From Brevibacillus composti (GTDB lineage: Bacteria; Bacillota; Bacilli; Brevibacillales; Brevibacillaceae), in contig NZ_CP066308.1 in assembly GCF_016406105.1 (NCBI RefSeq), positions 1,771,501-1,835,500 on the forward strand: DNA of 64,000 nt, in the 5' to 3' direction. Below are positions 7,367 to 19,549 of the stretch, one piece after another. Both the position numbers and the translations under genes were made by a program. A model generated the notes under the pieces. That model worked only from the letters and a program-made list of their open reading frames with translations, had not been told where the DNA came from and made no database searches. Numbering within the stretch: position 1 is the stretch's first letter; each line of letters starts with the position of its first letter.

Positions 7367-7525
7367 TTATTCCCCCGCTCTGCCCGACAGCCGATCAATC
7401 ACCTTCACTCCCCGGTAATACACCTGCCCAATCTCCTCGACCGACGCGATCTCCAGCCCCGGAACGCCGGTCGCTACCAGAAAATTGGCTTCCCGCCCTT
7501 CCCGCAAGCTGCCGTAGCGGGGAGT
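7367..7525 (-). pseudogene. C-terminal remnant of an amidohydrolase
   Basis: On the minus strand this stretch reads RYGSLREGREANFLVATG, then a PGLEIASVEEIGQVYYRGVKVID segment, ending in TAA. This is the usual C-terminal strand of metal-dependent amidohydrolases (dihydroorotase, hydantoinase or imidazolonepropionase type: G-S-L-x-x-G-x-x-A-D-x-x-V). An in-frame TGA and no further homologous sequence lie directly upstream, so only about 50 codons survive. It lies between a nitrogen-compound operon and the serine dehydratase genes, so it may be a leftover of the same catabolic locus. Confidence 0.65.
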
Positions 7526-7758
7526 TCATCCGATTCCCTCCTTTATGAATCAACCATCTCTACCAACTATGTGGTTCTGTATCTTATGAGCGGAAGAGGC
7601 AGTGGGTGAAGGCCCGGCTTCCCCGTCAGGAACCTATAGCGCTTTCAGAGGCGGTGAGATACAATGGGAGTGAACCTTTTCGGTAACGTACTCTGTACCA
7701 AGACTTCGCCGAAAGCTTGGAGAAGCCAAGTTTTCTAAGAATTCAGGAGGAGAATCGG
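7526..7758 (+). other. Leader region before sdaAB, no gene found
   Basis: About 230 bp with no convincing coding sequence. It contains short dyads, such as CTTGG-agaag-CCAAG near 7719-7733. No T-box core and no recognisable glycine riboswitch were seen. AGGAGG at 7745-7750 serves sdaAB. A promoter must lie here but no clear -35/-10 pair stands out. Confidence 0.4.
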
Positions 7759-8424
7759 GTGAAATATAAAAGTGTGTTTGACATCATCGGTCCTGTCATG
7801 GTGGGACCGTCAAGCTCGCATACAGCAGGGGCTGCGCGGATCGGGCGAATGGCCCGCAAGCTGCTCGGCAGTCAGCCCGATCGAGCGGATATAACCTTTT
7901 ACGGCTCGTTCGCCAAGACCTACAAAGGGCACGGCTCTGATGTAGCCACGGTCGCCGGGATTCTCGACTTCGATACGTTTGACCTGAGACTGAAGGACTC
8001 GCCGCAAATCGCGCGGGACCTGGGGATCGAGGTGAACATTAGCGTCTCGGATGAATTGACCGGCCATCCCAACACGTCGCGGATCCGCCTTTTCGCCGGC
8101 GAGAAGCAGGTGGAAGTGGTGGGCGTCTCGATTGGCGGCGGAAAGATCGAAGTGATCGAGATCAACGGATTTGCCTTCCAGCTCGGTTTCGATACGCCGA
8201 CGCTGATGGTGCTCCACGAGGACCGGTTCGGTATGATCGCCGGAGTGGCCAAAGTGCTGAAAGAGCATCGCATCAATGTCGGCCTGATGGAGGTATCGCG
8301 GCACGAGCGCGGTTCGCGCGCATTGATGGCGATCGAGACGGACTCCGTGGTCTCGCCCGAGGTGCTCGCCGAAATCAGCAGGATACCGCATATTTTTGAC
8401 GTCTCGCTGCTTTCTTTAACCTAG
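7759..8424 (+). CDS. sdaAB: L-serine dehydratase, beta subunit
   Basis: Beta chain of the two-subunit iron-sulphur L-serine dehydratase, which converts serine to pyruvate and ammonia. The 221-residue protein has the PVMVGPSSSHTAGAARIGRMA segment that completes the active site and a C-terminal ACT-like domain (MIAGVAKVLKEHRINVGLMEVS) that may sense serine. GTG 7759 is chosen because AGGAGGAG lies 8 bases upstream; the longer frame from 7717 would cover that site. sdaAA follows 28 bp later and recG overlaps sdaAA, the same order as in B. subtilis. Confidence 0.95.
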   Translation: MKYKSVFDIIGPVMVGPSSSHTAGAARIGRMARKLLGSQPDRADITFYGSFAKTYKGHGSDVATVAGILDFDTFDLRLKDSPQIARDLGIEVNISVSDELTGHPNTSRIRLFAGEKQVEVVGVSIGGGKIEVIEINGFAFQLGFDTPTLMVLHEDRFGMIAGVAKVLKEHRINVGLMEVSRHERGSRALMAIETDSVVSPEVLAEISRIPHIFDVSLLSLT

Positions 8425-8452
8425 AGCGGGATCAGAGGAGGGAATTGTCAAC

Positions 8453-9340
8453 ATGTTTCGAAACGTAGCGGAACTCGTCGAACTGGCTGAGTCCCAGGGA
8501 AAAAAGATCTCGCAGGTGATGATCGAGGCGGAGATGGAGGTTTCCCAGCGGACGCGCGATGCCATTTTAGCGGATATGTACACCAATTTGGATGTGATGG
8601 AAAAAGCGGTTCGCCGCGGACTGACGGAAGACATCCGTTCACACAGCGGACTGACGGGCGGCGATGCGAAAAAACTGCAGGAGTACATGCAGAATAAGCC
8701 GTTTTTGTCCGGACCGACGCTGCTGAACGCGGTCTCGATGTCCGTCGCGGTCAATGAAGTAAACGCAGCGATGGGGACAATCGTGGCGACGCCGACGGCA
8801 GGGGCCTGCGGCATCGTCCCGGGGACGCTTTTCGCCGTATCTGACAAGCTGCAGCCGACGCGCGAAGAGATGGTCAACTACCTCTTCACGGCGGGGGCCA
8901 TCGGCTATTGCATCGCCAACAACGCCTTTATCTCCGGCGCCGCCGGCGGCTGCCAGGCGGAAGTAGGATCGGCTACGGCGATGGCGGCCGCCGCGATCGT
9001 CGAGATGGCGGGAGGCACGCCGGAGCAGTCGGCCCAGGCTGTGGCGATCGCGCTGAAAAACATGCTCGGTCTGGTCTGTGACCCCGTAGCCGGACTGGTC
9101 GAAGTGCCTTGCGTGAAGCGCAATGCCATGGGAGCGGCTATTGCAACAGTAGCTGCCGATATGGCGCTCGCGGGCATCAAGAGTGTGGTGCCGACAGACG
9201 AAGTGATTGAAGCGATGTACCGGATCGGCTGCGCCATGCCCACGACGCTCAAAGAGACGGCACAGGGAGGTTTGGCTGCGACGCAGACAGGCCGTCAGAT
9301 CGAAGCCAAAATTTTCGGTGTGCCTCTGGAGAAAAAATGA
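8453..9340 (+). CDS. sdaAA: L-serine dehydratase, alpha subunit
   Basis: Catalytic chain (295 residues) that carries the oxygen-sensitive 4Fe-4S cluster. Cysteines expected to ligate or lie near the cluster are in TAGACGIVPG, GGCQAEVGSA and LVCDPVAGLVEVPC; the glycine-rich GAAGG loop is also present. GAGGAGG-type ribosome site 9 bases before ATG 8453. Its stop overlaps the start of recG by four bases (ATGA), so the two are translationally coupled. Length and motifs are normal; with the beta chain it should be functional. Confidence 0.96.
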   Translation: MFRNVAELVELAESQGKKISQVMIEAEMEVSQRTRDAILADMYTNLDVMEKAVRRGLTEDIRSHSGLTGGDAKKLQEYMQNKPFLSGPTLLNAVSMSVAVNEVNAAMGTIVATPTAGACGIVPGTLFAVSDKLQPTREEMVNYLFTAGAIGYCIANNAFISGAAGGCQAEVGSATAMAAAAIVEMAGGTPEQSAQAVAIALKNMLGLVCDPVAGLVEVPCVKRNAMGAAIATVAADMALAGIKSVVPTDEVIEAMYRIGCAMPTTLKETAQGGLAATQTGRQIEAKIFGVPLEKK

Positions 9341-13436: not shown

Positions 13437-13455
13437 TACTCAGGAGATGGTTCTG

Positions 13456-14697
13456 ATGTCCCATGAAAACGGACGGATTATTTTTCTTGCTGACATGCAG
13501 AGCTTTTACGCCAGTATCGAAAAAGCGGCTCATCCGGAGCTCGAGGGCAAGCCGGTCGTGGTGGCGGGCGACCCGGAGCGGAGAAGCGGGGTGGTACTGG
13601 CTGCCTGTCCGATCGCCAAGTCCTACGGCGTGACCACCGCCGAAGCGCTGTGGCAGGCGGAGCAAAAATGCCGCCATCTGGTGGTGGTTCGTCCCCGGAT
13701 GGAGACCTACATGCGGATTGCGGTGCAAATCACGCGGATTCTCGAGTCGTTTACCGATCTGGTGGAGCCGTATTCGATTGACGAACAGTTTCTCGACGTG
13801 ACGGGAAGTGTCCGGCTGTTTGGAGATCCGTGGAAGATCGCGGAGGAAATCCGCCGGCGCATTCGGCTGGAGACGGGCATCACCTCCCGGATCGGGATTG
13901 GCGAAAACAAGGTGCTGGCCAAAATGGCCTGCGACAATTTCGCCAAGAAGCAGGAGCCGGGCATCTTCTGGCTGAAGCGGGAGGAGCTGGCGGATACGCT
14001 GTGGAAGCTGCCGATCGAGAAGCTGTTTGGCGTGGGCTCGCGGATGAAGCGTCATTTTCACCGCATGGGCGTCTACCAGATCGGGCAGCTCGCCCAGCTC
14101 TCCCCCGCGGTGCTGACCAAGCGCTGGGGGGTAAACGGCGAGGTGCTGTGGCGGACGGCCCACGGTCTGGACGATTCCCCCGTGTCGCTGCGCACCCATG
14201 AGACCCAAAAAGGAATTGGCCATCACATGACGCTGCCGCGCGACTACCATACGGAGGCGGATATCAAGGTGGTGCTGCTGGAGCTGTGCGAGGAGGTATG
14301 CCGCCGGGCACGGAGCAAGGAGATGATGGGGCATGTGGTCTCCGTCGGCTGCCGGGGCGCTGATTTTGACATCCCGACGGGCTTTGGCCGCCAGCTGAAG
14401 CTGCCGGAGCCGACCCATGACGCCATGACCCTGTACGAAGCGGTCTGCCGCCTGTTCGACCGGCATTGGGAGGGTACTCCGGTGCGCAGCGTCGGGGTCA
14501 ATCTGGAGCAGCTGGTTCCCGACAACATGGTGCAGCTCAATCTCTTTACCGATACCCACAAACAGCGCTCGCTCGCCCGCGCGGTAGATGATATTCGCAG
14601 CCGCTATGGCCCGGATGCCATTCTGCGGGCGGTGTCCACCCTGAGAGCAGGGCAGGCGCGGGAGCGGGCGAGAAAGATCGGAGGGCACTATAAATGA
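13456..14697 (+). CDS. Y-family DNA polymerase (UvrX/UmuC-like), SOS-induced
   Basis: Translesion polymerase of 413 residues related to UvrX/YqjW of Bacillus. Palm residues are visible: LADMQSFYASIE (first Asp), VVVAGDPERRSGVVLAACPIAKSYGV, and SIDEQFLDVTG (Asp-Glu pair), then the thumb HhH (KLFGVGSRM) and a little-finger domain. ATG 13456 is preferred: CAGGAG is 9 bases upstream, whereas ATG 13447 directly abuts it. Two LexA boxes precede it. The stop overlaps the next start. In related bacteria a yolD gene is often the partner; here a YolD-like gene occurs about 3.5 kb downstream beyond a foreign-looking island. Confidence 0.92.
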   Translation: MSHENGRIIFLADMQSFYASIEKAAHPELEGKPVVVAGDPERRSGVVLAACPIAKSYGVTTAEALWQAEQKCRHLVVVRPRMETYMRIAVQITRILESFTDLVEPYSIDEQFLDVTGSVRLFGDPWKIAEEIRRRIRLETGITSRIGIGENKVLAKMACDNFAKKQEPGIFWLKREELADTLWKLPIEKLFGVGSRMKRHFHRMGVYQIGQLAQLSPAVLTKRWGVNGEVLWRTAHGLDDSPVSLRTHETQKGIGHHMTLPRDYHTEADIKVVLLELCEEVCRRARSKEMMGHVVSVGCRGADFDIPTGFGRQLKLPEPTHDAMTLYEAVCRLFDRHWEGTPVRSVGVNLEQLVPDNMVQLNLFTDTHKQRSLARAVDDIRSRYGPDAILRAVSTLRAGQARERARKIGGHYK

Positions 14698-15140
14698 CGG
14701 CTGGCCACCCGCACGATTGCGAAGGCGAACAAGAGCTGCTCCGGCTGTACGTGCTCTTCGGCCTGTTGTTCCGGGTGGCGATGGTGGATGGCGGCCGGGT
14801 GCAGACCGTTCCGCTGAAACTCTCCTACCAGTGGTTTTTTGAAGAGATTTCCTGCTGGGCCGAGAGGGAGCATCATCGGCTGCGCCGCAAGCTGCAGGAG
14901 CAGGGATGCCGCTGTCTGACCGCCACCCGTCAGGATGGCTTTTATGTGGTCCAGTACCGGCATCGCGGGTATGTAAAGGAAGCCGTCTATTCCATCGAAG
15001 TCCTCCGGGCCCAGTGTCAGGAGCTGGCCCGCTCGTGGATGGCGATGCAGGATGCGGCGCCCCAGAGAGGAGCCCAGAAGACAGGTGACAAGGTGTTACC
15101 GGAAGATACATCATCTTGCTTACTGCAAACCCATCAATGA
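14694..15140 (+). CDS. Hypothetical protein coupled to the SOS polymerase
   Basis: 148 residues, not recognised. It overlaps the polymerase stop by four bases, so it is co-translated and SOS-regulated by position. An N-terminal acidic stretch is followed by a helical, Arg-rich core with three Cys, WFFEEISCWAEREHHRLRRK, then a YVVQYRHRGYVKEAVYSIEVLRA segment that resembles beta strands plus a helix of small accessory factors of Y-family polymerases. It could be a clamp- or polymerase-binding adaptor. It is not an obvious YolD homologue; that family is represented by the gene at 18186. Gene reality is well supported by coupling and base composition. Confidence 0.7.
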   Translation: MTAGHPHDCEGEQELLRLYVLFGLLFRVAMVDGGRVQTVPLKLSYQWFFEEISCWAEREHHRLRRKLQEQGCRCLTATRQDGFYVVQYRHRGYVKEAVYSIEVLRAQCQELARSWMAMQDAAPQRGAQKTGDKVLPEDTSSCLLQTHQ

Positions 15141-15205
15141 ATAGCATTGGCATAACAAGAAAGGGAGCAAATCTAAGTGGAATTTGCCCCCTTTAAAGTG
15201 GTTTG

Positions 15206-16222
15206 TCAGAATATGGGTTCTGGACATGACAAGGATTTAGAGATACTCTCGAAGTTTAAAGTATTAGAAAAATTTATCATGCCTTGAACTGTTAGATTAC
15301 CCCTTGAAGCAATATATTTTGGATTTTTAGTAACAATTTCAGCTAAAGTGTTACGAAGTGGTTGAAAATGAGCGTTGACTCTTTTCTGGTCATTTAGAAG
15401 GTAATAGTAATACATTAAAGCAGTTGACACGCAAGCAGAGTGGTATGCTTTATCAATTGGTCTTTTAATTTTTAAAATGGTAGAGGTGGTTAAAGCTTCT
15501 TTCTCGGTCAGATTGGATGTGTCTGGGAAGATAACATGTATCATATCATCAATGAATACGCTATTATGAACAAATTCATGAATGAGATTCTCAGCATAAT
15601 CAATAACAGTCCAATTAGGTTGTGGATTAAACCAAATTAATCCTATTAAACTTGAAACAGTGCCTCCGCCATAACCTTTTTTGCGACAGAAGCAAATCGT
15701 TCCAATTACCTGATTTATTAAGCTGTGGAGGTCAGGATTTAGCATATGGATTAGCTTAAGCGCCTTTTGCATGTTTGATTTAATGACCTCTTGGTCATCT
15801 TGATTAAATAGATGTTGATCACCTAATGTATCCTCTTCATCAATCATTCTCTCTGAAATAAGATGTGAAACAAGTGCTTTGCTACCAAAGTCAAGAAGAA
15901 TACCGTTATTTATATGTGGAATATTGGAACTCTGAAGCCAGTTTACGACGTGAAAAAAGTTATCTTTTACGGTGCTTAGTGGATCACCATAAACATCTGC
16001 AATAAGTTTAATGTTACACGAAATCTCTTTACTATTGAGAAAATAAAGTTGGTTGTCAACTTCAAAGTTTTGCTGAGGTAAAATAAGCTCGTCTAGCGGT
16101 ATAGATAGATATGATTCGTTAGTTGCAAGAAGTTTTCTGGCGTTAAAATTGTGGTTCAAATGGTTCTTCATAAATCTAAGCATGTTCAGTTCAACTCTGT
16201 CTATTTTGGTGAAAACTCCCAT
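15206..16222 (-). CDS. HExxH protein, likely peptide-modifying (alpha-ketoglutarate beta-hydroxylase-like)
   Basis: 338 residues. The key motif is LIHEFVHN (HEFVH at 215-219), followed by KRPIDKAYHSA with R254 and H261. HExxH plus a downstream RP...H is the pattern of the HEXXH-motif proteins found in RiPP clusters, some shown to be iron/alpha-ketoglutarate peptide beta-hydroxylases rather than proteases. No signal peptide, so it acts in the cytoplasm. Start chosen among three consecutive ATGs (16222-16228) behind GGGGGA; the longer frame to 16327 has no ribosome site. It is divergent from a tandem-repeat peptide gene, its probable substrate, and is AT-rich compared with flanking genes. Metalloprotease remains possible. 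Confidence 0.72.
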   Translation of the reverse strand: MGVFTKIDRVELNMLRFMKNHLNHNFNARKLLATNESYLSIPLDELILPQQNFEVDNQLYFLNSKEISCNIKLIADVYGDPLSTVKDNFFHVVNWLQSSNIPHINNGILLDFGSKALVSHLISERMIDEEDTLGDQHLFNQDDQEVIKSNMQKALKLIHMLNPDLHSLINQVIGTICFCRKKGYGGGTVSSLIGLIWFNPQPNWTVIDYAENLIHEFVHNSVFIDDMIHVIFPDTSNLTEKEALTTSTILKIKRPIDKAYHSACVSTALMYYYYLLNDQKRVNAHFQPLRNTLAEIVTKNPKYIASRGNLTVQGMINFSNTLNFESISKSLSCPEPIF

Positions 16223-16356
16223 CATCATTCCCCCAAAAGTATTTTTACAGTCTGATCTTATGTTAAAATTTGGGTAAATATGCATTTTGTTGATTCGGAG
16301 TAATATTAATAATACTGCGCTACACAAATAAATTTAGTGAATGGAGGTTTATGTAT
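16223..16356. promoter_or_regulatory. Divergent intergenic region of the repeat-peptide locus
   Basis: 134 bp AT-rich gap between the HExxH gene and the repeat peptide. For the peptide, TTGTTG (16287-16292), a 17-bp spacer and TAATAC (16310-16315) form a plausible sigma-A promoter. GGAGG at 16344-16348 sets the peptide start. No clear promoter for the minus strand gene and no palindromic operator were found. Confidence 0.55.
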
Positions 16357-16728
16357 ATGGAAAACGTAAAGGGAGACTCATTGCGTATGGCGATTCACGA
16401 TCAGTCGGAACCAGTAACGGGCCCACTGCGTATGGCGATTCATGATCAGTCGGAACTAGCAACGGGCCCACTACGTATGGCGATTCACGATCAGTCGGAA
16501 CCAGTAACGGGTCCACTGCGCATGGCGATTCATGATCAGTCGGAACCAGTAACGGGTCCATTGCGCATGGCGATTCATGATAAGTCGGAACCAGCAATGG
16601 GCCCACTGCGCATGGCGATTCATGATCAGTCGGAACCAGTAACGGGTCCACTGCGCATGGCGATTCATGATCAGTCGGAACCAGTAACGGGTCCATTGCG
16701 CATGGCGATCCGTAGTAAAAAGAAGTGA
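16357..16728 (+). CDS. Tandem-repeat precursor peptide, seven LRMAIHDQSEPVTGP units
   Basis: 123-residue protein: an 8-residue head (MENVKGDS), seven 15-residue units LRMAIHDQSEPVTGP, and a tail LRMAIRSKKK. Units 1, 3, 4, 6 and 7 are identical in protein; unit 2 has SELATGP and unit 5 has DKSEPAMGP. DNA units differ mostly at silent third positions, so the peptide is under selection. ATG 16357 is 9 bases after GGAGG; ATG 16351 is too close. With the divergent HExxH enzyme and an adjacent exporter it looks like a RiPP precursor with many cores, in which His-Asp or other residues in each unit would be modified and units released. A structural or binding repeat protein is the alternative. Confidence 0.75.
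   Translation: MENVKGDSLRMAIHDQSEPVTGPLRMAIHDQSELATGPLRMAIHDQSEPVTGPLRMAIHDQSEPVTGPLRMAIHDKSEPAMGPLRMAIHDQSEPVTGPLRMAIHDQSEPVTGPLRMAIRSKKK
16381..16710 (+). repeat. 45-bp tandem repeat, seven copies plus a 15-bp partial
   Basis: Period exactly 45 bp, from ttgcgtatggcg at 16381 to 16695, then ttgcgcatggcgatc. Copies alternate between gggccc/ggtcca, cgt/cgc and cac/cat. The three 5' copies (gggccc, cacgat) and the 3' copies (ggtcca, catgat) form two sub-types, which suggests growth by duplication of neighbouring units. Confidence 0.95.
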
Positions 16729-16754
16729 GATAATAAATATTCCCAATTGATGAT

Positions 16755-16793
16755 ATAACTCCCATAATATAGTATGGGGGTTATTCTTATTTT
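16755..16793 (+). terminator. Terminator after the repeat peptide
   Basis: ATAACTCCCATA pairs with TATGGGGGTTAT, followed by a T-rich tract TCTTATTTT. Read-through may allow some expression of the exporter next door. Confidence 0.75.
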
Positions 16794-16869
16794 ATAATCC
16801 GACATAAAGTGAGGGATTGCTGGTGTGATACATACCAATTCCACTTTACAAAGAAAGGAAGATACGTGT

Positions 16870-18105
16870 ATGAAAAATAAATTCTTTTATTTTTTGTTAA
16901 TCGGACAATTCTTCTCTTATTTGGCTGATGTTTTTTTTATTGTTGCTTTAATTTCGATTGTGTTTCATTTGACGCATTCAACAGTAGTAGCCGGTTTAGT
17001 TCCAATTTTTCGTGTAAGTGCAGGCTTGCTAAGTGGAATGGTGGCACCGCTTATAATTGACCGTTATAATCCATTAGCCGTGCTAAAGTTTTCAAATTTG
17101 CTACAGTCAATATTGTTTTTGGTTCTTGCAATTTGTAGTCTCTATCCAATTAAACAAATTGTTGTTATTCCGTTTTTTCTTATACTGACCTTCCTGCTCT
17201 CATTTTTTGAAGGGTGGGCGGCTCCAATCAGGAATTCACTTGTTCCTAACTTGGTGGACAAAAATGAGTTACTTAAAGCAAATAGCCTTTTGTCTACCTT
17301 AGATCAGAGTGTTCAATTGATGGGGTGGTTTCTTGGAGGTTATCTAGTTGTTTTTGTAGGTGATACAAAACTACTTTGGGTTACATTCATATTTTCTATA
17401 TTATCCTCAATGCTATTTTTTTCGTTAAAGAATCAAGTAGTGTTTGGCTCTGTAAAACAGAAAGCTGAATTGGAAGCACAGGAAAAACGTCCATGGAATT
17501 CGCTAAAAGAGGGATGGGAAACAATTTGGAGACTCCCAACTATTCGCGCCATTTTCCTAATGGATTTTCTTGAAGGTTTGGTTAATGCTGTTTGGATTGC
17601 GGCAATATTGTTTGTTTATGTTCGTGACGTCCTTCATAAAGGTGAAGAGTGGTGGGGGTTTATAAACGCAAGTTTTTTCTTGGGGGGAATCGTAGGAGGA
17701 ACCGCCATTGTTGCCTTGGGAAGGTACACTAATTCTTATTTACGTTTTTTCATAATTTTCGGAGCTTTTACCATCAGTATTATGACTTTCGTTTTTGGAA
17801 TTGTATCAAATCCAATCTTTGCACTCGTGCTGTCGTTTATTTTAGGAGCCGTTACCCAATTACGGGATACCGCCCAACAAACCATACTTCAAGAGAGTAC
17901 ACCAGAAGGGATACTACCGAAAGTGTTTGCAGCAAAAGCAACCATGATGTATGCAACATTTGGAATTTCTGTTCTATTTATGGGGATTATAACCGATGTT
18001 TTCGGGGTGAAAAGCACATATGTAGTAGCAGCCACATTTATAGGGATTGCGGGGTTATCTGCAATTTTTCAAATGAAACCTGTCTTCGATAGAAGTGCCG
18101 GGTAA
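16870..18105 (+). CDS. MFS transporter, probable exporter of the repeat-peptide product
   Basis: 411 residues with about 12 membrane helices of the major facilitator type (FFSYLADVFFIVALISIVFHLT, then a loop RYNP between helices 2 and 3). It resembles the MFS_3-like drug and peptide exporter group more than nutrient importers. ATG 16870 has AAAGGAAG 8 bases upstream; the longer frame from 16825 lacks a site. AT-rich like the other two island genes and 140 bp downstream of the peptide gene, on the same strand. Likely role: export of or immunity to the modified peptide. Substrate is inferred from position only. Confidence 0.85.
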   Translation: MKNKFFYFLLIGQFFSYLADVFFIVALISIVFHLTHSTVVAGLVPIFRVSAGLLSGMVAPLIIDRYNPLAVLKFSNLLQSILFLVLAICSLYPIKQIVVIPFFLILTFLLSFFEGWAAPIRNSLVPNLVDKNELLKANSLLSTLDQSVQLMGWFLGGYLVVFVGDTKLLWVTFIFSILSSMLFFSLKNQVVFGSVKQKAELEAQEKRPWNSLKEGWETIWRLPTIRAIFLMDFLEGLVNAVWIAAILFVYVRDVLHKGEEWWGFINASFFLGGIVGGTAIVALGRYTNSYLRFFIIFGAFTISIMTFVFGIVSNPIFALVLSFILGAVTQLRDTAQQTILQESTPEGILPKVFAAKATMMYATFGISVLFMGIITDVFGVKSTYVVAATFIGIAGLSAIFQMKPVFDRSAG

Positions 18106-18122
18106 AGGTCTGGTTTACAAAG

Positions 18123-18151
18123 TTGTTATAACAATAAGAAAAGGGTATAAT
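18123..18151 (+). promoter_or_regulatory. Sigma-A promoter of the yolD-like gene
   Basis: TTGTTA, 17-bp spacer, TATAAT at 18146-18151. The near-consensus pair is followed at once by a LexA box. Confidence 0.82.
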
Positions 18152-18152
18152 G

Positions 18153-18166
18153 GGAACGAACGTTCT
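18153..18166. promoter_or_regulatory. LexA (SOS) box of the yolD-like gene
   Basis: GGAACGAACGTTCT contains the Cheo-box core GAAC-N4-GTTC exactly, just downstream of the -10. It shows the yolD-like gene is SOS-regulated on its own, apart from the polymerase promoter. Confidence 0.8.
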
Positions 18167-18185
18167 TAAATGGGTGATGAATTGC

Positions 18186-18524
18186 ATGGGGCGAAAAAAG
18201 GACAACATCATGGGTGCGATGAGATTTGTGCTGCCCGAACACCGGGAGCTGTACAACCGAATCAAGGCGGAGGAGCGGCGCTACGTTCCCCCTGAACGAG
18301 ACGAGGAGCAGCTGGCGGCGCTCAGCGGACGCATCTGGGAGGCCCGGCAGACGGGCAGCCCTGTCACGCTCGTCTACTACGACGGGACGCAGGCGAGCCG
18401 CCTGACCGGAACGGTTGCGCATATCGATCAGGCGCTGGGGAAAATGAAGCTGCAAACAGAAGGCCAGACCGTCTGGATTCCCTTTTCCCGTCTGCTGGAG
18501 GTGGAGCTGGCAACCAACTCCTAG
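18186..18524 (+). CDS. YolD-like protein, SOS-regulated
   Basis: 112 residues. Shows the YolD pattern: FVLPEHRELYNRIKAEER early, then PVTLVYYDGTQASRLTGTVAHIDQALGKMKL and VWIPFSRLLEVEL, a small Sm-like beta barrel. YolD proteins accompany Y-family polymerases such as UvrX and are thought to assist or modulate them. The start is not certain: ATG 18186 keeps the usual N-terminal segment; ATG 18210, behind AAAAGGA, would give 104 residues. Own promoter and LexA box upstream. The partner polymerase lies at 13456, separated by the AT-rich peptide island. Confidence 0.85.
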   Translation: MGRKKDNIMGAMRFVLPEHRELYNRIKAEERRYVPPERDEEQLAALSGRIWEARQTGSPVTLVYYDGTQASRLTGTVAHIDQALGKMKLQTEGQTVWIPFSRLLEVELATNS

Positions 18525-18600: not shown

Positions 18601-19113
18601 GTGAATGCCACGATTGTCCATAAGCTGGTCGGCGCGGTGATTTTGCTCACAGCCTGCGGCACGGCAGCGCCGATGAAAGAACCGTCGCAGGTCGCGCCTC
18701 CGGACGGCCAGGCGAGTATCCGCCAATCCCAGCAGAGCACCCAACACCGCCAGCTACAGGAGTCAGCGCCCCGGGCTGCAACCGGGCAAGCAAAAGCAAG
18801 ACCCGCGCACATGATGCTGGATGTGCCGATCATCGCGCAAAAACCGGAATTGAAAAACGGCTGCGAGGTGACCAGCCTGGCGATGCTGCTGCAGTTCGCC
18901 GGCCATCCCGTGGATAAAATGACCCTCGCCCGGCAGGTCAAAAAAGACCTGGAGCCGCTCCGCTCACGGCAAAAAAACAGCGGCGGGTGCCTCATTCGGC
19001 TTTGCAAAAAAGCTGGGAAGCCTTGGGAAAACAGGCGATCAGCTACCGCTGAAGCGGCGAGACGGAAGGCAAGCGGAGCAAAGCTGCGGCGGAAGGTGAA
19101 AAGCGGTGTGTAG
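18601..19113 (+). pseudogene. Truncated C39-like (papain fold) lipoprotein
   Basis: Starts at GTG 18601 behind AAAGGAG with a lipobox-like signal (VILLTAC, C19), then a Gln/Ser-rich linker. Residues of about 78-120 ([38 protein letters not shown]) match the N-terminal half of C39-like cysteine peptidases, with the catalytic Cys in NGCEVTS. After QVKKDLEP the similarity is lost: the frame runs through an unlike Lys/Arg-rich tail to a stop, and the His and Asp half of the active site is missing. A frameshift near the poly-A run around 18970 plus deletion is likely. It may still be made, but not as an active protease. Confidence 0.6.
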
Positions 19114-19267
19114 TGACGTGGTGAGACTCTCAGATCAATAAGCGAGGAAAAACAAGATTTTTTCGCAGATTTCTGCGGAAAACGCATTTTGCCAAACGGT
19201 TGCGTTCCTTGTATCGTTAGGATGTCTCAACTATCACTACTCGGATGGGAACCAAAGGAGATCGTAC

Positions 19268-19549
19268 ATGTTAGCACAGGAAATGGGTGTCATTTTCACG
19301 AAGCACGTCGGGCACATGAGCGCCAAAAGCTGGACGGACTTTATCCGTCAGCTGGAGAGCAAGGGATTGTATGTCGTGATTGAGACAGATACAAATGGAC
19401 GGGTGATGAGTCCCCTTGGCGGTCTGATGCCAATGCCATGCAAAAGTGAGACGCTCCAAATTTTGACCTCCGAAGAGCTGCAAGAGCGAGGCCTTCCGGT
19501 TGGGCATCACATCGTGACGACGCGCAAAAGCAATGTGATCCCGACGTAA
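19268..19549 (+). CDS. Hypothetical 93-residue protein
   Basis: Intact small gene with AAAGGAGATC 4-9 bases before ATG 19268 and a strong terminator after it. The sequence (MLAQEMGVIFTKHVGHMSAK, then FIRQLESKGLYVVIETDTNGRVMSPLGG) has an alpha-beta pattern, is soluble, and has no signal peptide or membrane helix. No family was recognised. Its neighbours are degraded genes, but this one has no sign of damage. Confidence 0.7.
   Translation: MLAQEMGVIFTKHVGHMSAKSWTDFIRQLESKGLYVVIETDTNGRVMSPLGGLMPMPCKSETLQILTSEELQERGLPVGHHIVTTRKSNVIPT

Follow-up and report, generated by a model that had tools for sequence, protein, structure and literature searches.

A stretch of 64,000 nucleotides from Brevibacillus composti (contig 1, positions 1771501-1835500; hereafter the window) contains a three-gene cassette consisting of a gene for an HExxH enzyme, a divergent gene for a repeat peptide, and a gene for a major facilitator superfamily (MFS) protein; all three are uninterrupted open frames. 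We consider it reasonably probable that this is a cassette for a ribosomally synthesized and post-translationally modified peptide (RiPP) in which the leader is fused to the enzyme, and in which a leaderless array of seven cores is hydroxylated unit by unit and exported. An earlier note on this DNA had described a minimal RiPP-type locus, a description supported here by the recurrence of a peptide gene and an MFS gene beside homologues of the enzyme.

The enzyme corresponds to the note's divergent 338-residue protein with HEFVH followed by RP...H: HEFVH occupies residues 215-219 and RP residues 254-255, followed by H261, and H215, E216, H219, R254, and H261 are invariant across 18 aligned enzymes. 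Kinship with iron/alpha-ketoglutarate beta-hydroxylases, also suggested in the note, is borne out both by profile and by predicted fold. The window enzyme scores 45.3 bits against TIGR04267 (the alpha-ketoglutarate (aKG)-HExxH-type peptide beta-hydroxylases), passing the cut-off of 40, and the same model matches all 18 enzymes scanned; Pfam returned no match above a cut-off for the window enzyme. An AlphaFold model built from a 14-row alignment (mean predicted local distance difference test, pLDDT, 81.5) most closely resembles the HExxH domain of ChlB (ChlBH, 8s5f; Foldseek 1.8e-7; Z 22.6, root-mean-square deviation 2.8, 241 residues aligned), followed by SjiH (22ob; Z 19.5), with all other chains compared at Z <=6.5. 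Additionally, a profile of the 18 enzymes searched against the PDB recovered ChlH at 2.3e-7, with the HExxH and RP...H blocks aligned. The window enzyme is a member of the aKG-HExxH beta-hydroxylase family. For this family, hydroxylation has been reported on His, Asp, Phe, Gln, and Pro (PMC13060819), and two members additionally cleave the peptide backbone oxidatively (PMC12636437).

Tandem Repeats Finder detected a single array in the whole window, of 45 bp x 7.3 copies with 92% matches, which agrees with the seven 15-residue units of a 123-residue peptide described in the note. The peptide begins at the second of two ATGs downstream of GGAGG, and only 8 residues precede the first unit. The seven full units read LRMAIHDQSEPVTGP with few changes, units 2 and 5 being the variants, and are followed by an eighth, partial unit, LRMAIRSKKK, which is without the His. 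Among the seven units, the ratio of nonsynonymous to synonymous substitution rates (dN/dS) is 0.18 in the peptide frame, as compared with 0.59-1.01 in the other five frames. Most changes between units are thus silent in the peptide frame alone, and this substitution pattern indicates that the repeat peptide is very probably a real gene product; concerted evolution, through gene conversion among units, may add to their likeness. Coding on the strand opposite the array is ruled out by the same analysis, and the open frame found there is a mirror. All three genes had been called AT-rich, which is correct for the enzyme gene (34% guanine plus cytosine, GC) and the MFS gene (38%) and incorrect for the array (53%), which is near the 56% of the window outside the cassette.

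A profile scan of genome contigs based on a five-row alignment identified 14 named loci with relatives of the enzyme, in Laceyella, Priestia, Cohnella, Geobacillus (3), Exiguobacterium, Bacillus (3), Anoxybacillus, Peribacillus, and Cytobacillus (2); an earlier scan with a two-row alignment gave nothing. In these relatives a short peptide gene, mostly of 36-45 residues, lies upstream of the enzyme gene, and its product combines a conserved leader, NIxxYxxxHxx, with a core, M-x-[IL]-H, that lies at the C-terminus, is usually present once, and is preceded by 26-36 residues. Examples are MNKKHVENIKRYVEHYLKSNAQMSLVVQPLRMQIHLTK from Geobacillus and MSKINENIKLFSKNHFNEKGRRVVVVLVMQLHDEGNKTSEE from C. 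firmus. A leader-bearing peptide is present at 10 of the 14 loci and the M-x-[IL]-H core in nine of those, that of Laceyella read by eye; WMMC1349 has kept the leader and lost the core. At the remaining four loci (L036, L037, L039, and L040) the precursor is not assessable because they are cut by contig ends or by a transposase-like open reading frame (ORF). Leader-bearing precursors were also found at all four of the Gram-positive plasmid loci opened. The sole start of the Laceyella peptide is a GTG overlapping its AGGAGG, and the peptide of S. warneri 16A is without a clear start codon.

Of 15 peptides listed, with the window array among them, 13 contain the M-x-[IL]-H motif; the exceptions are SPbetaL1 (M-I-L-K) and WMMC1349 (none). 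Counting SPbetaL1 with the 13, the core Met is shared by 14 peptides. The residue after the core His is D in six peptides, L in four, and E, I, or T in one each, and the Arg ahead of the core Met is not conserved. The window unit LRMAIHD carries the core of the relatives, and the Cohnella peptide has two cores. Judged by sequence, the window repeat is the relatives' core multiplied, core and repeat unit being homologous. A leaderless precursor holds for the window and fails as a family trait, the relatives carrying a leader; likewise, what the note had named as its own refutation, enzyme homologues that do not co-occur with repeat peptides, is literally the case, nearly all relatives being single-core with a proper leader, though the core itself is homologous. 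Where the note had offered His or Asp as the modified residue, the conservation of the His, and the variability of the position after it, make His our best guess.

A precursor profile applied to 398 genomes of the class gave six strong matches (E below 1e-11), all six in enzyme-positive genomes. Four of these (G002, G131, G266, and G306) are matches by construction, their peptides having been used to build the profile (A5), and the G139 peptide is identical to that of G266; the sole independent strong match is therefore G368, a broken copy with one TAA. Two of the eight enzyme-positive genomes had no strong match: the window genome, which was recovered weakly through its array (E 0.006), and the divergent G119. 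Weak matches (E 0.014-0.097) in 21 further genomes of the 398, none with an enzyme match, were treated as chance. Searching the window genome with the precursor profile at E up to 10 gave seven matches, all inside the array. NCBIfam named none of seven peptides scanned, and Pfam none of six above a cut-off, with one sub-threshold match to DUF2470. The M-x-[IL]-H core, the aKG-HExxH enzyme, and the MFS protein together apparently constitute an undescribed three-gene RiPP family.

The distribution of this family is patchy. Among 39 genomes of the order, a close homologue of the enzyme is found, besides the window genome, only in G002 (41%), and a distant one in G021; matches occur in eight of 398 genomes of the class, the window genome included, and in eight of 397 genomes of the order of G266 (Geobacillus). 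Homologues are also present in nine plasmid records, including S. aureus pPH1-1, S. warneri, and Cytobacillus, from which five stretches were examined (a second intact S. warneri, Nocardia, Streptomyces, and a second Acinetobacter were left out). pPH1-1 carries two HExxH genes, an annotated 42-residue ORF, and an MFS gene; the two adjacent HExxH genes (L043:5058-6891) share the one precursor ORF. Of 50,697 phage records, one contains a homologue, the SPbeta-like SPbetaL1, and no relative of the enzyme was found in viral_contigs; a viral origin as a general rule was rejected on these counts.

Three HExxH loci were rejected as family members. The enzymes of the Acinetobacter plasmid (L047) and of L059 are distant and that of L008 (from G021) is divergent, the last with an MFS gene present; no M-x-[IL]-H precursor was seen at any of them. 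In the Acinetobacter plasmid, a 71-residue peptide with PLRMIAYEDM (L047:5640-5855) precedes the HExxH gene and a gene for an ATP-binding protein follows it; this is perhaps a distant sister system. G457 (L059:6601-9717) has two overlapping divergent HExxH genes and then an MFS gene, with no M-x-[IL]-H precursor among the listed ORFs.

With respect to the placement of the leader, the window enzyme differs from its relatives at the N-terminus. Relatives' enzymes with an identifiable start are 279-301 residues long (the start in G002, whose longest frame is 319 residues, being taken as the ATG behind AGGAGG), and the window enzyme is about 45 residues longer; the FL[HN] block begins within about 25 residues of the start in relatives, versus 60 residues in the window enzyme, for which no better internal start was seen. 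The extension occupies the place of the relatives' precursor gene. When 13 leaders, none of them from the window, were locally aligned to enzyme residues 1-48, the summed score of 359 was reached by none of 3000 shuffles (maximum 355), none of the N-termini of 309 ORFs in the window (maximum 274; this set includes the enzyme frame itself, from a longer TTG start), and none of 1084 enzyme windows of 48 residues (maximum 317). When residues 1-60 were shuffled 20000 times and scored with a leader profile, 16 shuffles did as well as the real sequence. Additionally, tblastn, unprompted, aligned the enzyme stretch NMLRFMKNHLNHN with the S. warneri precursor leader NILRYKKDYLNED. In WMMC1349 an apparent deletion joins leader and enzyme out of frame, so such junctions may form. 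No separate leader gene was found elsewhere in the window genome using the full precursor profile at E up to 10, a search that could miss a lone leader. The alignment and shuffle comparisons give statistical support to the N-terminal extension as probably a precursor leader moved onto the enzyme, and the leaderless precursor in the window looks like a derived state.

Several observations weigh against this proposal. The leader profile scores only 4.1 bits against the whole window enzyme, and the enzyme ranks fourth of 714 scoring window segments (1368 given), with three other short frames higher. The best single-leader score, 37, was equalled by 35 of 3000 shuffles, and the top shuffle sum falls just short of the real sum. 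The C. firmus precursor, compared with the window enzyme by BLASTP, gave nothing (E 45), and the extension was not listed by the precursor search of its own genome at E up to 10. Residues 1-55 of the AlphaFold model are mostly at pLDDT under 50, with no docking visible, and no second genome with a fused leader-enzyme form was found. Regarding the cassette as a whole, the SPbetaL1 core makes the M-x-[IL]-H motif less than universal, and no MFS match lies within the 10.9 kb of SPbetaL1 examined; the MFS gene follows the enzyme gene on the same strand in Priestia, Exiguobacterium, Cohnella, G002, and pPH1-1; and no protease gene is present among the cassette genes, to which the search was limited, the rest of the genome not being searched.

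The low absolute profile score and the low pLDDT of the extension would also fit a RiPP cassette of the proposed kind whose extension is unrelated to a leader, the enzyme recognizing the repeated core directly or a high local concentration of cores substituting for a leader. Leader-independent tailoring enzymes are known for lasso peptides (PMC13003496). However, no shuffle and no ORF N-terminus equalled the extension in summed leader similarity, and the extension sits where relatives have their precursor gene; we regard this alternative as somewhat unlikely.

Under the leader-fusion proposal, the ancestral form would have been that of the relatives, with a short precursor, an MFS exporter, and an aKG-HExxH hydroxylase that would bind the leader and act on the core. 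The window form would have arisen when the precursor's leader segment became fused, in frame, with the enzyme, and when the core increased to seven copies on an ORF of its own that has almost no leader and adjoins the exporter gene. Activated in cis by its own leader, the enzyme would act on the array one unit after another, the beta-carbon of the conserved His being the likeliest site of hydroxylation; the modified peptide would be exported by the MFS protein. The array may be cut by a host protease, or the HExxH enzyme may itself cleave the backbone oxidatively, in the way that PflC/PosC act on ARMD. For PflC/PosC, the N-terminal leader is inferred by the authors of that work to gate the oxidative chemistry (PMC12636437), and for this reason a leader borne on the enzyme would matter. 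By a slight preference, we favor the fuller account in which movement of the leader to the enzyme freed the core to multiply, with each unit hydroxylated, and perhaps also cut, by a single HExxH oxygenase that activates itself.

A role mainly in cutting, by oxidative or hydrolytic backbone cleavage in every unit and hence release without a protease, would be compatible with leader fusion. PflC/PosC, of the same family, cleave at ARMD and have no protease gene near their clusters (PMC12636437); each window unit contains R-M in a cassette without a protease gene, and the core-position Met is shared by nearly all of the listed peptides. However, the core of most relatives occurs once and close to the C-terminal end, so that a cut there would take off few residues, and the Arg is not conserved; cutting as the main activity appears unlikely.

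Several relatives look broken. WMMC1349 lacks the core and the enzyme start codon, the enzyme gene of Geobacillus zalihae is interrupted beside a transposase-like ORF, that of S. warneri 16A is cut by IS257, and that of Cytobacillus BNO1 is split in two pieces. This breakage would fit a relic, that is, a decaying cassette whose precursor leader was deleted and whose array no longer matures. However, the three window genes are fully open and the units retain a low dN/dS, though gene conversion could also keep them alike, and we consider decay quite improbable.

Three related genomes show the site without the cassette, the genes that flank it in the window being neighbours there. In G021, G025, and G003, a DNA polymerase IV-like (IMS) gene, the next small ORF, and yolD are contiguous; in the window, 3 kb at 38% GC stands between the small ORF and yolD. 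A scan for inverted repeats bounding the cassette found five pairs, none at its two ends. In the enzyme tree, Geobacillus, Anoxybacillus, Exiguobacterium, Bacillus CH30_1T, Priestia, and S. warneri form one supported clade (100/97), the peptides of which end in PLRMQIH[LTI]; enzyme and core type therefore travel together. The window enzyme is not joined with that of the same-genus G002, in a part of the tree with weak support (82/75). Horizontal movement of the RiPP cassette is suggested by its occurrence on plasmids and in a phage and by its patchy distribution.

The HExxH gene of SPbetaL1 has in its vicinity a yolD-like ORF and a polymerase gene of the DinB/UvrX type (L058:4798-5882, 7376-8951), the latter sharing 37% identity with its counterpart in the window, and the window cassette likewise lies between a dinB-type gene and yolD (13447-18524 region). 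A phage route, a shared insertion site, or coincidence are possible explanations of this likeness. After yolD, at 18601-19549 of the window, a gene that we take to be C39-like apparently forms two separate ORFs, for which a frameshift may be responsible; it belongs to the old neighbourhood, being found in G025 too, and lies outside the cassette.

Table 1. Features of the cassette, with positions counted from the first nucleotide of the window.
Feature	Positions	Strand	Basis
aKG-HExxH peptide hydroxylase, 338 aa (ATG 16222)	15206..16222	-	TIGR04267 score; AlphaFold model closest to ChlBH 8s5f
Enzyme N-terminal extension, residues 1-48, read as probable fused leader	16079..16222	-	Similarity to 13 leaders
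Leader-like stretch NMLRFMKNHLNHN, enzyme residues 13-25	16148..16186	-	13-leader profile (weak score); tblastn alignment
HEFVH motif, residues 215-219	15566..15580	-	H, E, and H invariant across 18 enzymes
Putative multi-core substrate peptide, 123 aa, nearly leaderless	16357..16728	+	Repeat and dN/dS analyses
Seven 15-residue units LRMAIHDQSEPVTGP, core M-x-I-H	16381..16695	+	Repeat analysis; precursor-profile matches
Degenerate terminal unit LRMAIRSKKK, His lost	16696..16728	+	
Terminator-like hairpin between array and MFS gene	16755..16784	+	Hairpin scan
Predicted MFS exporter, 411 aa	16870..18105	+	Pfam MFS_1 4.4e-27
Terminator-like hairpin directly 3' of enzyme gene	15160..15194	-	Hairpin scan

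The identification of an MFS gene in the earlier note is upheld by the Pfam match in Table 1. An MFS gene is present at 11 of the 14 named loci; it was not seen in L035, L037, or L039 and is in pieces in L029 and L034. The divergent layout of the window, with the MFS gene and core array opposed to the leader-enzyme gene, is shared by Laceyella, Geobacillus, and S. warneri, in which the MFS gene diverges from the precursor and enzyme genes; gene order therefore agrees partly with the proposed fusion. The region contains three terminator-like hairpins against a shuffle mean of 2.3, about the number expected by chance, and a scan for sigma-70-type promoters was uninformative (nine seen, 9.9 expected).

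Additional ORFs occur at some of the related loci. In G002, a 285-residue Cys-rich protein with no NCBIfam or Pfam match above cut-off is encoded between the HExxH and MFS genes (L007:5800-6657, minus strand). Cytobacillus firmus AMY 5.1.1 (L036:852-1853) and Bacillus sp. NTK034 (L040:679-1680) have a 333-residue ORF in the same position, which we take to be a luciferase-like monooxygenase. In Exiguobacterium, a gene beside the cassette (L021:8865-9242, minus strand), whose product looks secreted and repeats SEQDYPGAGKATVKVA about five times, adjoins a regulator-like ORF (L021:7422-8735, plus strand); we presume that these may form an RRNPP-type signalling pair.

Among the papers listed by a literature search, with subscription papers mostly outside its scope and a motif query made uninformative by the unrelated acronym MAIHDA, neither the three-gene family nor a leader-enzyme fusion of natural origin was seen to be described. 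The family occurs on chromosomes, plasmids, and a phage, and its small cassette, with no further modifying enzyme, lends itself to work on this new oxygenase fold. Should the leader fusion be confirmed, the window would hold a natural, evolved cis-activated RiPP enzyme with a leaderless multi-core substrate, would illustrate one route by which multi-core precursors arise, and would offer LRMAIHDQSEPVTGP and its enzyme as a short tag system for peptide hydroxylation.

Among known systems, ChlB/ChlBH (8s5f) shares its fold, HExxH motif, and RP...H block with the window enzyme, and the ChlBH-type enzyme hydroxylates Asp and His (PMC12636437); unlike that system, the window cassette has no radical SAM gene and its enzyme bears an N-terminal leader-like extension. 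The PflC/PosC clusters of Pseudomonas similarly combine an aKG-HExxH enzyme, a peptide, and a transporter with no protease gene nearby, as described in the same source. However, they have a long NHLP-type leader, a Gln run with ARMD, and GNAT and MNIO-nitroreductase genes, whereas the window has three genes and the M-x-[IL]-H core. The nitrilobacillin (pes) cluster of Peribacillus likewise places an aKG-HExxH enzyme, PesO, in a RiPP cluster of Bacillota; it differs in Pro hydroxylation, an MNIO, a nitrile synthetase, M16 peptidases, and a different precursor motif. The best NCBIfam match of the exporter is the ryptide export MFS family NF041056, yet its score of 180 bits is far under the family cut-off of 575. 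Finally, in engineered leader-enzyme fusions a leader in cis makes the enzyme act on leaderless cores (PMC13003496); those fusions are man-made, whereas the window case would be natural and would have a seven-core substrate.

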